A stretch of DNA of 58,472 bases, taken from NCBI GenBank assembly GCA_019240395.1, contig JAFAYM010000087.1, positions 1-58,472 on the forward strand, in the 5' to 3' direction. Source of the DNA: Acidisphaera sp. Lineage in GTDB: Bacteria; Pseudomonadota; Alphaproteobacteria; Acetobacterales; Acetobacteraceae. Shown piece by piece: positions 10,037 through 56,452 of this stretch. Each line of letters begins with the position of its first letter. Positions within the stretch are counted from its first letter, which is position 1. The notes beneath the pieces are model-generated. The model worked only from the letters and a program-made list of their open reading frames with translations, made no database searches and had not been told where the DNA came from. A program made the translations under genes and the position numbers.

Positions 10037-10082
10037 GCCGGCATAGGGCGCGCAGCCGCGGCGGCTGTCAAAGAAGTTGCCT

Positions 10083-10167
10083 CAAGTAAAATGGGGTCTG
10101 GGGACGGCGGTCCCCAGCGGGGTCCCAATTTCTCAGCCTTGGGGGCGGAGCCCCCTGGCCTTACTTG
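10083..10167. repeat. 85-bp GC-rich palindromic element at the end of the FAD oxidoreductase gene
   Basis: The element is bounded by CAAGTAA (10083-10089) and TTACTTG (10161-10167). Inside are two hairpins, CTGGGGACGGCGGTCCCCAG and GGGGGCGGAGCCCCC. Bases 10090-10126, read on the minus strand, match 35391-35427 at 32 of 37 positions, so this is a member of the same repeat family as the one joining the glycosyltransferases. The right arm supplies the TAA stop codon of the neighbouring gene. Confidence 0.7.
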
Positions 10168-32802: not shown

Positions 32803-34091
32803 AGGTCGCGCTGCTCAATCCGCCATGGCGCTTCGACCAGAGCATCTATTTCGGCTGCCGCGAGCCGCATCTGCCGCTCGAACTCGGCTACACGAGGGCG
32901 CTGCTGCTGGCCGCCGGCCACGACGTGTTGCTGCTGGACGGGCATCTCTGCGGCCGCGATGCCGCCTCGTTGGCGGACGAGGTCGCCGCCTATGCGCCCG
33001 ACATCACCGTCGTCACCACCGCGCCGAGCTACCTGTTCTGGCGCTGCGCGCCGCCGGAGCTGCGGGTGCCGCGCGAGATGTTTGCGGCGCTCGCCGGGCG
33101 GGGCGGCATGACGGTTGCCGTCGGGCCGCACGGCTCCTCGACACCAGGCGCCGTGCTCCGCAAGCTCGGCGTGGATGTGGTGGTGCGCGGCGAGTGCGAG
33201 GAGGTGCTGGTGGCGCTCGCCGCCGGCACGCCGCCCGCCGACATCGCGGGCTGCGCCGTGCTGGACAATGGTGTGCTGCGGGTGAACGGGCCGCCGCAGG
33301 CCGCGACCTTCACCGACCTTCCGGCGCTGCGCTGGCCCGACGCATGGGTGCGCCGCCATCGCCACCACCACCACCGTTTCGATGCCGTGCCGGACTGTCC
33401 TGGCGCCGAGGTGGAAGCGTCTCGCGGCTGTCCGTATTCCTGCACGTTCTGCGCCAAGATCGATTTTCGCGACGGCTACCGCCGGCGCCTTCTGCCGCTG
33501 CTGCTCGAGGAGATCGACGGGCTGCGTGAGCAGGGCGTCGGCTATCTCTATTTCATCGACGAGATTTTCCTGCCGAACCGTCCGTTGCTGGAGGCGCTGG
33601 TCGGGCGCGGGATGCAGTTCGGCGTGCAGACCCGGATCGACCTCTGGAAGCCGGAGATGATCGCGCTGCTCGGCCGCGCCGGCTGCGTATCCATCGAGGC
33701 GGGCGTCGAGAGCCTGACCGAGGATGGACGGGCGGCGCTCGACAAGCGCTGCAAGCTCACCACCGACGAGCTCGCCGACCTGCTGATCCTGGCGCGGCGG
33801 CACGTGCCGTTCGTGCAGGCCAATCTCATCGAGAGCACGGGCGATGATGCCGCCATGGTGGCCCGCTGGCGCGAGCGGCTGCAGGCGCAGGGCGTGTGGG
33901 CCAACGATCCGGTGCCGCTCTACCCCTACCCCAGCTCGCCCGACTATCGCCGCCTCTGGGGCGAACCCGACGAAGCCGCGTGGGAACGCGCGCACGCCCA
34001 CTACCTCGCGCAGTTCGCGCGGTTCAGCGACATCCAGGAGAACGCCCCGCTGCCGCTCGCGGCACTCGAGGCGGCATGCCTGCCGGCCTAG
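32799..34091 (+). CDS. B12-binding-type radical SAM protein of the sugar cluster
   Basis: A 430-residue protein. The N-terminal Rossmann-like domain starts KVALLNPPWRFDQSIYFGC and contains D47-G-H49-L-C-G52, which has the DxHxxG spacing of cobalamin-binding proteins. The radical SAM domain follows, with the cluster motif C211-PYS-C215-TF-C218. A histidine cluster, RRHRHHHHRF (185-194), precedes it. Such enzymes carry out methylations or carbon-skeleton changes; genes of this type occur near oligosaccharide genes. The ATG at 32799 overlaps the previous stop (ATGA), and the TAG stop is the first part of a repeat element (34090-34146). Confidence 0.85.
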   Translation: MKVALLNPPWRFDQSIYFGCREPHLPLELGYTRALLLAAGHDVLLLDGHLCGRDAASLADEVAAYAPDITVVTTAPSYLFWRCAPPELRVPREMFAALAGRGGMTVAVGPHGSSTPGAVLRKLGVDVVVRGECEEVLVALAAGTPPADIAGCAVLDNGVLRVNGPPQAATFTDLPALRWPDAWVRRHRHHHHRFDAVPDCPGAEVEASRGCPYSCTFCAKIDFRDGYRRRLLPLLLEEIDGLREQGVGYLYFIDEIFLPNRPLLEALVGRGMQFGVQTRIDLWKPEMIALLGRAGCVSIEAGVESLTEDGRAALDKRCKLTTDELADLLILARRHVPFVQANLIESTGDDAAMVARWRERLQAQGVWANDPVPLYPYPSSPDYRRLWGEPDEAAWERAHAHYLAQFARFSDIQENAPLPLAALEAACLPA

Positions 34092-34146
34092 AGCGTGATG
34101 ACCGAAGGTGGAATCACCGCAGGTCTGAATCATGCTCTCGAACAAC
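34090..34146. repeat. GAGCGTGAT-type palindromic repeat, copy 1
   Basis: The unit starts in the TAG stop codon of the radical SAM gene. Its ends, GAGCGTGAT (34091-34099) and ATCATGCTC (34129-34137), form an inverted repeat with one mismatch. Bases CCGAAGGTGGAATC onward match 53035-53079 in the same orientation with few differences. Similar elements are known in alphaproteobacteria. Confidence 0.75.
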
Positions 34147-34147
34147 G

Positions 34148-34267
34148 AGTTCTCGGGCGCGCCGATTTACGGCCGTCATATCAGCGAAAGCGGGAATCGA
34201 TGTGCCGCGTGGACCCCCGCTTTCGCGGGGGTGACGACAATGGGTGGCACTCCGTGGGACCTCGTAT
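34148..34267. repeat. 120-bp dispersed palindromic repeat, copy B
   Basis: This unit is about 90 percent identical to 13577-13696 in the same orientation, with equal length. The first hairpin is damaged (ATATCAGCGAAAGCGGGAAT), the second is strong (CCCCGCTTTCGCGGGG). It directly follows the repeat at 34090-34146, so two different repeat families are joined in the 214-base gap before the glycosyltransferase fusion. Confidence 0.8.
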
Positions 34268-34305
34268 CACATGACTTCGTCTATGGAAGTCATCACGCTC
34301 TGACG

Positions 34306-36591
34306 GTGGAATTTCCGAGACGCGTGCTGCTCAGCGCCGATGCGGTCGGCGGGGTGTGGCGCTATGCGCTGGAGCTGGCGGACGGGCTGGCGGGGCAGGG
34401 GATCGAGACCGTGCTGGCCGTGCTCGGCCCGGCGCCCTCGCCGGCGCAAGCGCGCGAGGCGCAGGCCGTTCCGGGGTTGCAGCTCTGTTCGACCGGGCTG
34501 GCGCTGGACTGGACCGCCGCCGATGCCGAGGCGCTGGCCGCGGCAGGGGACGGACTGGTTGCGCTCGCCGCCTCGCGGCAGGTCGACATCGTGCATCTGC
34601 ACGCGCCGGCGCTGGCGGCCTGGACGCGGTTCGCAATGCCCGTCGTGGTGGTCGCGCATTCCTGCGTCGGCACCTGGTGGCGCGCGGTGCGCGGCGGTCC
34701 GCTGCCCGCCGACCTGGCGTGGCGCGCCGAGCCGACGGCGCGCGGACTGCGTGCCGCCGATGCGGTGATCGCACCAAGCCGCAGCTTCGCCGCGGCTCTG
34801 CGTGCGGAATACGGCGAGCTGGCGATCGACGTCGTGCATAACGGGCGCACCCCGTTGGCGGTGCCGGAGATTCCGCGGGAGCGCGCCGTGCTGACCGCCG
34901 GGCGCCTGTGGGACGAGGCGAAGAACGTGGCGCTGCTGGATGCCGCGGCGGCACGGCTGGACGTGCCGGTCTATGCCGCGGGGCCTGTCGCGTTCGAGAA
35001 CGGCGCGCAGCTGCAGAGCCGATCCCTGCAACTGCTCGGCGTTGTCGATGACGCGGCGCTGCGGCGCCGGATGGCCGGCACCGCCGTATTCGCCTCGGTG
35101 TCGCGCTACGAGCCGTTCGGCCTCGCGGTGCTGGAAGCGGCGCAGGCCGGCATGGCCCTGGTGCTGTCCGACATCCCGACGTTTCGCGAGCTGTGGGACG
35201 GCGCCGCGCTGTTCGTTTCCGATGACGTGGAGGCCCTTGCGGAGGCGCTGCGTCGCGTGCTCGACGATGGCGAGAGCTGGGCACGCGCGGCGCGAGTGCG
35301 ATCGGGCTGCTTTGGTGCAGCGGACATGGTGCGGGGGACGCTCGCCGTCTTAAGGAAGGCGAGGGGCGCTGCCCCCGTCCCTTCAAGCACGGGACCCCGC
35401 TGGAATCCGTCGGCCCCAGACCCCATTCCCTTAAGTAACGGGTTCGAAGGGCATTGCCCTTCGTGGGCGTCGAGGGGGCGAAGCCCCTCGCCTTCCTTCC
35501 TTTACTTCACCCACTCCCTGATCTCGTGCTGGAACCACGGCAACGCGCATTTTCTGCGCGGCGTGCTGCGCGAGCTGCAGGCGCGGGGCCACGCGCTGCG
35601 CGTGCTCGAACCGGCGGACGGCTGGAGCCGGGCCCATCTGCTGGCCGAGCAGGGCGCCGCAGCGACGGACGATTTCGCCGCGGCGTTTCCCGGCCTGGCC
35701 TCGCAGACCTACGGCGAGGATCTCGACATCGCGGCGGCAGTCGATGGCGTCGATGTGGTGATCGTGCATGAGTGGAACCCGCCCTGGCTGATCGCCGCGC
35801 TCGGCCGGCACCGCCGTGAGGGCGGCCGCTTCCTGCTGCTGTTCCACGATACGCACCATCGCGGGGTCAGCGATCCCGCGGCGCTGCGGGCGCTCGATCT
35901 CTCCGGTTATGACGGCGTGCTGGCCTTCGGCGAGGCGCTGGCCGCGGTCTATCGCAGCTGGGGCTGGGGCGGGCGCGTCTTCGTCTGGCACGAGGCGGCC
36001 GACATCGCGCTGTTCCATCCGCCGGCTCAGGAGCGCCCGAGGGCGGGACTCGTCTGGGTCGGCAACTGGGGCGACGACGAACGCACCGCCGAGCTCGGCA
36101 CCTTTCTGTTCGAGCCGGCTTCGGCGCTCCGCCTGCCGCTCGACGTGTATGGCGTGCGCTATCCGCCCGAGGCGCTGGCGACGCTCGCCGCGCATGGCGC
36201 GACGTATCGCGGCTGGCTGGCGAACGCGAAAGTGCCGGAGGTGTTCGCGCGCCATCTCGCGACGGTGCATGTGCCGCGCCGCTTCTACGCCTCGGTCCTG
36301 CCGGGAATTCCGACGATCCGGGTCTTCGAGGCGCTGGCCTGCGGCATCCCGCTGGTCTGCGCGCCGTGGGACGATGCCGAAGGCCTGTTCCGGCCGGGGC
36401 GCGACTACCTCGTCGCCCGCACCGGGGCGGAGATGCGGGGGCACTTGAACGCGCTCGTGCACGATCCGGGGTTGCGCGCTTCGCTGGCGGCATCGGGGCT
36501 GGAAACGATCCGCGCCCGCCACACCTGCGCCCATCGCGTGGACGAGCTGCTCGGCGTCATCGCCGCAATGCGCTCCGCGGTCACGGCGTAG
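34306..36591 (+). CDS. Fused double glycosyltransferase (GT4-like plus CgeB-like)
   Basis: One frame encodes two enzymes. Residues 1-348 (RRVLLSADAVGGVWRYALELA onward) form a GT4-like transferase with the E-x7-E motif in YEPFGLAVLEA. Residues about 399-761 (FLYFTHSLISCWNHGNAHFLRG onward) form a CgeB-like transferase with PTIRVFEALACGIPLVCAPW. Between them, 49 codons come from the inverted-repeat element at 35352-35498. The second half has no ATG, GTG or TTG of its own near its natural N-terminus, so it must be translated as a fusion. I chose GTG at 34306 because it directly precedes the conserved start; an upstream ATG (34132) would translate repeat DNA. The TAG stop overlaps the next GTG start by one base. 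Confidence 0.78.
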   Translation: MEFPRRVLLSADAVGGVWRYALELADGLAGQGIETVLAVLGPAPSPAQAREAQAVPGLQLCSTGLALDWTAADAEALAAAGDGLVALAASRQVDIVHLHAPALAAWTRFAMPVVVVAHSCVGTWWRAVRGGPLPADLAWRAEPTARGLRAADAVIAPSRSFAAALRAEYGELAIDVVHNGRTPLAVPEIPRERAVLTAGRLWDEAKNVALLDAAAARLDVPVYAAGPVAFENGAQLQSRSLQLLGVVDDAALRRRMAGTAVFASVSRYEPFGLAVLEAAQAGMALVLSDIPTFRELWDGAALFVSDDVEALAEALRRVLDDGESWARAARVRSGCFGAADMVRGTLAVLRKARGAAPVPSSTGPRWNPSAPDPIPLSNGFEGHCPSWASRGRSPSPSFLYFTHSLISCWNHGNAHFLRGVLRELQARGHALRVLEPADGWSRAHLLAEQGAAATDDFAAAFPGLASQTYGEDLDIAAAVDGVDVVIVHEWNPPWLIAALGRHRREGGRFLLLFHDTHHRGVSDPAALRALDLSGYDGVLAFGEALAAVYRSWGWGGRVFVWHEAADIALFHPPAQERPRAGLVWVGNWGDDERTAELGTFLFEPASALRLPLDVYGVRYPPEALATLAAHGATYRGWLANAKVPEVFARHLATVHVPRRFYASVLPGIPTIRVFEALACGIPLVCAPWDDAEGLFRPGRDYLVARTGAEMRGHLNALVHDPGLRASLAASGLETIRARHTCAHRVDELLGVIAAMRSAVTA
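35352..35498. mobile_element. 147-bp MITE-like element inside the glycosyltransferase fusion
   Basis: The ends are a perfect 16-bp inverted repeat: AAGGAAGGCGAGGGGC (35352-35367) and its complement (35483-35498). The inside has a hairpin CGAAGGGC-ATT-GCCCTTCG (35445-35463) and a block, 35391-35427, shared with the element at 10083-10167. The length is exactly 49 codons and the frame is open throughout. It encodes no transposase, and no clear target duplication is seen. Confidence 0.75.
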
Positions 36592-37670
36592 TGGACATCG
36601 CCTTCTACGGATCGAGCCTGCTCTCGTCGTACTGGAATGGTGCGGCGACCTATTATCGCGGCCTGCTTTCCGCGCTGGCCCGGCACGGCCACCGCGTCAC
36701 CTTCTACGAGCCGGATGCGTTCGAGCGGCAGCAGCACCGTGACATCGCCCCGCCGTCATGGGCCGCGGTGCGGGTGTACGACGCGACGCTGCCGGCGCTT
36801 GCCGACGTGATCGCCGAGGCGGCGCGGGCGGACGTGGTGATCAAGGCGAGCGGCGTCGGCGTGTTCGACGACGAGCTGCTCGCCGGCACGCTCGCCGCGG
36901 CGCGCGCCGATGCGGTCCGCGTGTTTCTCGACGTGGATGCGCCGGCGACGCTGGCCGCGATGCGGGCGGATCCGCGGCACGCGCTGCACGCGGCGCTGCC
37001 GGCGCTCGACATGGTGCTCACCTATGGCGGCGGGCCGCCGGTGGTGGCGGCCTACACGGAGTTCGGCGCGGCGCTGTGCGTGCCGATCTACAACGCGCTC
37101 GATCCGGCGGAGCACCACCCGGCGACACCGGAGCCGCGTTTCGCCGCCGATCTGGCGTTCCTCGCCAACCGGCTGCCGGATCGCGAGGCGCGTGTCGAGG
37201 CGTTCTTCTTCGAGGCGGCCCGGCTCCTGCCGGATCGGCGCTTCCTGCTCGGCGGCAATGGCTGGGGCGACAAGCCGATGCCGGCGAATGTGCGCGCCAT
37301 CGGCCATGTCTCCACCAACGACCACAACGCTTTCAACGCCTCGGCGCTGGCCGTGCTGAATGTCGCGCGCGACAGCATGGCGAGTATCGGCTATTCGCCG
37401 GCGACGCGTGTGTTCGAGGCGGCCGGGGCCGGCGCCTGCCTGATCACCGATGCCTGGGAGGGCATCGAGGTTTTCCTGGAGCCGGGCGAGGAGATCCTGG
37501 TGGCGCGTAACGGGGCCGAAGTCGCCGGCCACCTGGCGGCGCTGACGCCGGAGCGCGCCAGGCGGATCGGCGAACGGGCGCGGGCGCGGGTGCTGGCGGA
37601 GCACACCTATGACCGGCGCGCGGCGAGCGTGGATCGGCTATTGCGCGAGGCGCTGGGCATGCGGCGCTGA
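36591..37670 (+). CDS. CgeB-like glycosyltransferase
   Basis: A 359-residue transferase that appears related to the second half of the upstream fusion: both start with a strand and then WNG/WNHG, an RGLL/RGVL helix and GHRVTFYEPD/GHALRVLEPA. The C-terminal domain contains YSPATRVFEAAGAGACLITDAWEGIEVFLEPGEEI, the CgeB nucleotide-sugar region. The acceptor is unknown. The start is GTG at 36591, whose G is the last base of the preceding stop codon. A convergent small-gene set begins 3 bases after its stop codon. Confidence 0.85.
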   Translation: MDIAFYGSSLLSSYWNGAATYYRGLLSALARHGHRVTFYEPDAFERQQHRDIAPPSWAAVRVYDATLPALADVIAEAARADVVIKASGVGVFDDELLAGTLAAARADAVRVFLDVDAPATLAAMRADPRHALHAALPALDMVLTYGGGPPVVAAYTEFGAALCVPIYNALDPAEHHPATPEPRFAADLAFLANRLPDREARVEAFFFEAARLLPDRRFLLGGNGWGDKPMPANVRAIGHVSTNDHNAFNASALAVLNVARDSMASIGYSPATRVFEAAGAGACLITDAWEGIEVFLEPGEEILVARNGAEVAGHLAALTPERARRIGERARARVLAEHTYDRRAASVDRLLREALGMRR

Positions 37671-56303: not shown

Positions 56304-56326
56304 GCGTGTGTACGCGCAAGGGAGGA

Positions 56327-56408
56327 GCAAGGCGAGGGGCTTTGCCCTCCTTGGTCACGCGGTCGGGGGACGCTGCCCCGGCGGATTGAGATGGAGCCCT
56401 CGCCTTGC
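56327..56408. repeat. 82-bp GC-rich inverted-repeat element between patatin and bdhA genes
   Basis: GCAAGGCGAGGG (56327-56338) and CCCTCGCCTTGC (56397-56408) are perfect 12-base inverted repeats. The arm AAGGCGAGGGGC is the same text as the inner part of the inverted repeat at 35352, so it belongs to that family. It lies in the promoter area of two divergent genes. Confidence 0.7.
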
Positions 56409-56452
56409 TTCCGATCCCCCTCTAGGCTCAAACCCGAAGCGAGGAGAGCGGC

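Follow-up and report, generated by a model that had tools for sequence, protein, structure and literature searches.

The window analysed here, the whole 58,472-nucleotide stretch of an Acidisphaera sp. contig (JAFAYM010000087.1), contains one open frame that runs from a GTG at 34306 to a stop at 36589-36591, with no internal stop in the ORF reading of the window. This frame spans two glycosyltransferases and an inverted-repeat element between them, and its 761 stop-free codons bear out the initial annotation, which had described the frame as staying open through the element. Upstream of the fused gene are encoded a protein of the sugar epimerase type and a radical SAM protein that has a B12-binding-like region, and the locus appears to be a polysaccharide or glycoconjugate gene cluster. 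An NCBIfam search of the locus proteins returned no name above the cut-offs. The features of the region are as follows:

34306 to 36591, plus strand: fused gene of 761 codons and a stop (GTG start, TAG stop), encoding a GT4-type enzyme, a repeat-encoded linker and a CgeB-like/GT4 enzyme
34306 to 35351, plus strand: first enzyme (Pfam Glyco_transf_4 and Glyco_trans_1_4), about 8-22 residues shorter than its relatives at the C-terminus
35352 to 35498, no strand assigned: dispersed inverted-repeat element of 147 bp, encoding residues 350-398 (RKARGAAPVPSSTGPRWNPSAPDPIPLSNGFEGHCPSWASRGRSPSPSF), disordered by prediction at 357-392
35352 to 35367, plus strand: left terminal inverted repeat AAGGAAGGCGAGGGGC, with the conserved core AAGGCGAGGGGC
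35483 to 35498, minus strand: right terminal inverted repeat
35474 to 35505, plus strand: terminator-like hairpin followed by a T-rich tail, at the element's right end (consensus match only)
35500 to 36588, plus strand: second enzyme (Pfam Glyco_trans_1_2, PF13524), with element sequence in place of its start codon and the two codons after it
36591 to 37670, plus strand: next gene of the operon, a separate PF13524 glycosyltransferase that shares 1 nt with the TAG of the fusion

The 16-bp arms of the element are perfect inverted copies of each other, and the match stretches to 25 bp at 88%. The element begins on the third base of a codon (TT/A AGG, the slash marking its edge) and thus overlaps 50 codons, not exactly 49 as first described. 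As RNA it folds very stably into one long hairpin (about -87 kcal/mol, with z-scores of -3.5 to -9.1). A search of Rfam found no family for it, giving one sub-threshold miRNA match that lies outside the element, and a search of a plasmid collection found no DNA similar to it.

The element is not a chance palindrome, because it belongs to a repeat family in the same genome. We obtained 43 blast matches to it there and 61 exact matches to a diagnostic pattern (against 0 for the reversed control), and 79 copies, found by a profile search of fetched stretches of the genome, were checked; they lie on many contigs and on both strands. The search for further copies that the initial annotation had proposed was therefore successful, and its description of a dispersed, non-autonomous-looking repeat holds. 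Full copies measure approximately 120-150 bp, contain several internal hairpins and share conserved ends with the core AAGGCGAGGGGC...CCCTCGCCTT. In having terminal inverted repeats, a length insufficient for a transposase gene and many dispersed copies, the family resembles miniature inverted-repeat elements (MITEs). At about 120-150 bp, the element falls outside the 20-40 bp of REP/BIME sequences, whose palindromes are GTAG- or CGTC-tagged and associated with a RAYT transposase (definition partly after PMC3733652). Of 150 genomes from the same family (Acetobacteraceae), 44 contain weaker relatives of the element.

We rejected a family-wide maintenance of matching outer bases in the inverted repeat (observed run 0.77, shuffled 0.69). 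Since the outer four bases are not maintained as matching arms across copies, the figure of 16 bp, accurate for the copy at 35352-35498, represents a family core of only about 12 bp plus a chance extension. This copy is identical to no other that was found; its nearest counterpart in the genome is 88% identical by blast. Its flanks (GTCTT and TACTT) display no visible target duplication, the nearest relatives of the locus having only about 55-70% protein identity. A special loss of a TGA from the fusion frame by this copy was also considered and is weakened, as the same TCA variant occurs in two other copies with one mismatch and in a third with two.

Other repeats lie in the same window. A partial minus-strand copy of the family is found at 10080-10166, where its edge AAGTAAGG gives the adjoining gene its in-frame stop, and positions 56325-56410, a span of 86 bp, are bounded by inverted ends like the terminal repeat and may be a short diverged copy. 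An unrelated repeat with a 13-bp perfect terminal inverted repeat (AGAGCGTGATGAC) occupies 34090-34301, just upstream of the fused gene, whose GTG lies 4 nt past it. Its inner part (about 34145-34267) is present in some 40 copies at 84-93% in the same genome, and its composite form recurs at contig C42, which suggests a nested insertion.

The residues that follow the element match Glyco_trans_1_2 (PF13524) and also Glyco_transf_4 in Pfam. In the alignment, relatives of the second enzyme begin M-K/R-x-V-YFTHS, whereas the fusion reads P-S-F-L-YFTHS at this point. A scan of the fusion frame for ATG, GTG or TTG found none between GTG 35329, which sits within enzyme 1, and GTG 35563, which sits within enzyme 2 past its conserved N-terminal motif. 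The initial annotation was thus correct that the second enzyme has no start codon at its beginning, and for this reason the fusion is now the sole ordinary route to it. Two products might nevertheless be made, enzyme 1 within the long frame and enzyme 2 additionally from an internal start at ATG 35326 or GTG 35329, inside the end of enzyme 1, with a repeat-encoded N-terminal extension. An ATG GTG does stand in frame at 35326-35331, and coupled translation of the ancestral genes is probable; however, the stretch upstream of 35326 (GCTGCTTTGGTGCAGCGGAC) shows no convincing Shine-Dalgarno sequence, and an internal start would in any case leave the fused frame in place. We consider such a second product quite improbable.

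Comparison with relatives established what the arrangement had been. We assembled 114 loci, comprising 8 first relatives, 80 from named genomes and 26 more of the same family, with some species represented twice. Both halves are adjacent and in the same order in 112 of these, and in none of the 112 are they fused: as the initial annotation had suggested might be seen in relatives, the two enzymes are separate genes throughout, and the fusion is therefore derived. Stop and start overlap as NTGA in 92 of the 112 loci and as TGATG in 8. Given that -4 and -1 overlaps couple translation according to the cited portion of PMC10666635, ancestral translation was probably coupled. Among 397 genomes of the family, a match spanning both halves was found only in the fusion's own genome, and by these sequences the fusion is so far unique. 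Neither half had a match at the survey threshold in the one same-genus genome, which is 72% complete. Numbered genomes share gene names and junction sequences with named records (for example L183 with L119, Belnapia, and L186 with L122, Roseicella), which suggests Acetobacteraceae as the family. At seven loci (L105 and L107-L112), both glycosyltransferase genes lie in one frame with a single stop between them, none being fused; the protein alignment was anchored on loci with both genes in one frame. An uncultured Acetobacteraceae locus (L103:2501-4702) carries an in-frame TAG at codon 306 of its first glycosyltransferase, perhaps an error or a broken gene.

The relatives also revealed how much of the junction has gone. 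Their first enzyme continues for 8-22 residues beyond the valine homologous to window 35347-35349, so the proposal that the element comes directly after enzyme 1's natural C-terminus does not hold. From that valine to the fourth codon of gene 2 there are 35-71 nt in most of the relatives' loci measured, and gene 2 has its start codon, in every relative locus, 9 nt ahead of the residue that corresponds to window 35500. In the fusion, only TT separates the valine from the element, which extends to CTTTACTTC and takes the place of the M-K/R-x of gene 2. As originally claimed, enzyme 1 has lost its stop and enzyme 2 its start. With the tail of enzyme 1 and two further codons of gene 2 also lost, this was a replacement and not a simple insertion: a dispersed repeat does lie at the junction of two formerly separate genes, but the site does not look like that of a clean insertion, and the loss may have accompanied the insertion or followed it.

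The other copies in the genome indicate how exceptional this outcome is. Thirty of the 79 copies lie between same-strand genes, and only the 35352-35498 copy is crossed in frame. At 45 of 68 gene-to-element junctions, the stop falls within -9 to +6 of the element edge, at 16 the frame ends deep inside the element, and at one, the fusion, it reads through into another coding gene; gene calls around the copies were made with a simple score of codon usage, for which the window served as training set, and single cases may be wrong. The stop codon overlaps the element edge at 28 of the 68 junctions (e.g., AAGTAAGGCG and tAAGAAGG, in own-genome copies L047-L085 and L209-L248), thus the upstream gene often owes its stop to the repeat. 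A preference of the element for stop codons as targets was considered and is weakened, as an unrelated repeat of the same genome likewise lies near stops (8 of 11), and the proximity therefore probably reflects compact gene spacing. In copies of at least 125 nt about 38% of frames are open, and about a third of these copies have a length divisible by three. We estimate a chance of roughly one in eight that an event replacing a junction joins the frames. With open frames this common in the element, a single fusion could plausibly have arisen by accident in a genome so rich in repeats.

The same data bear on whether the open frame is genuine. An indel of 1-2 nt in or near the repeat could make the frame appear open, the assembly is a fragmented draft of 303 contigs, and a shifted frame would end enzyme 1 at TAA 35351-35353, in keeping with the upstream stops often seen at the edge of other copies. 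Such an error would still leave enzyme 2 without a start codon, however, and a copy that matches no other exactly argues against it. A mis-join is countered by the order and strand of the halves, which are those of the 112 relatives' loci. We therefore judge a sequencing or assembly error to be highly unlikely.

Both halves of the fused gene appear intact. With conservation in 93% or more of the sequences as the threshold for a column, the N half retains 55 of 58 conserved positions and the C half 145 of 147, and the terminal branches of the two halves are not the longest in their trees (rank 28 of 86 and 25 of 87, respectively). AlphaFold2 predicted two confident domains, with pLDDT mostly 80-98 in both; the mean pLDDT of the prediction was 86.9 and its pTM 0.56. 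Stretches of at least three residues with pLDDT below 50 occur only at 357-392, consistent with a disordered linker of 36 residues. In this model, residues encoded by the element complete the helix that closes domain 1 (338-355) and begin strand 1 of domain 2 (397-401), so the ends of the repeat fit both folds. The product would be a protein of about 80 kDa whose two domains are joined by a flexible linker encoded by the repeat, and from this linker peptides such as GAAPVPSSTGPR and WNPSAPDPIPLSNGFEGHCPSWASR are predicted. Predicted structure and conservation support tolerance of the fusion, short of proof of activity; both domains may be active.

Alternatively, the locus may be decaying, the insertion having broken the coupling and left an accidental open frame, with one or both domains inactive or expression blocked by an mRNA hairpin. 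The very stable fold, the terminator-like end of the element and the rate at which element frames are open by chance would all suit this explanation. Yet neither half contains stops or frameshifts, conserved residues are retained on branches of no unusual length, and the copy has diverged to 88% from its nearest counterpart, so that the insertion is probably not very recent. Decay thus seems unlikely to us.

The account that we favour, and hold to be probable, is that a coupled gene pair received a repeat, lost its junction and came to be read through the element as a single two-domain protein. In the ancestor, the two glycosyltransferase genes would have been coupled in translation, their stop and start overlapping as NTGA. 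A copy of the genome-wide MITE-like inverted-repeat element would then have arrived where gene 1 ends at its 3' side, and the junction, which measures about 35-70 bp in relatives, would have been lost. Gone with it would be the final residues and stop codon of gene 1, together with the start codon of gene 2 and the two codons that follow. What was left would read in frame through the element, giving one mRNA for the two-domain protein of about 80 kDa. We infer the order of these events, the insertion mechanism and expression. More tentatively, the mobile palindromic repeat may have served as a ready-made linker, converting the coupled pair into a functional bifunctional glycosyltransferase and keeping the two activities co-expressed once the coupling signal had been lost; this is possible, although we lean slightly away from it.

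Among known repeats, the initial annotation had likened the element to the Rickettsia palindromic elements (RPEs), which are inserted in frame within genes of Rickettsia (Ogata 2000 and 2002, reviewed in the cited passages of PMC10969869 and PMC2229807). The likeness holds for the outcome, a palindrome of about 150 bp with terminal inverted repeats, translated in frame within a host protein. It fails for the habit: RPEs often lie inside genes, with nearly half of the copies in R. conorii doing so (PMC10969869, same passages), and encode a conserved peptide, whereas here 1 of 79 copies was crossed in frame with coding sequence on both sides. Furthermore, RPEs sit inside one gene, while the 35352-35498 element bridges two.

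Parallels at the 3' end of a gene are found in other repeats. An ERIC / RU-1 sequence at the 3' end of the ECA3499 amidase removed the stop and made the protein longer than its conserved domain (PMC2759123, in the part cited). As in the fusion, a repeat at a gene's 3' end abolished the normal stop, but there the frame ends in the repeat, whereas here it continues into the next enzyme. In one Coxiella burnetii strain QMITE2 adds 33 C-terminal residues to EnhC, while in another the enhC stop immediately precedes QMITE2 (both from the cited section of PMC5896051). This too is a MITE at a gene's 3' end, and the stop directly before the element recalls many copies in the present genome; the case differs in that no second gene is joined, and the element is gammaproteobacterial and likened here by its description. 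Gene fusions born of deletion, in which loss of DNA between reading frames yields a new fused gene (PMC12803068), share that loss but unite fragments of distant genes, whereas here the genes were adjacent and the repeat was left as the linker.

A search limited to the open-access literature found no earlier two-enzyme case of genes joined by a repeat. The fusion is best described as a MITE-like coding insertion that bridges two genes; gene lengthening by repeats is known, and the joining of two enzymes is unusual. For annotators, it indicates that a long fused gene in a repeat-rich genome can be real and not an error. The repeats in the reports that we found extend or interrupt single genes, and the joining of two enzymes would offer a concrete route from operon to multidomain protein, in which a repeat inserts where a coupled stop and start meet, both signals disappear and an open frame rescues the pair.
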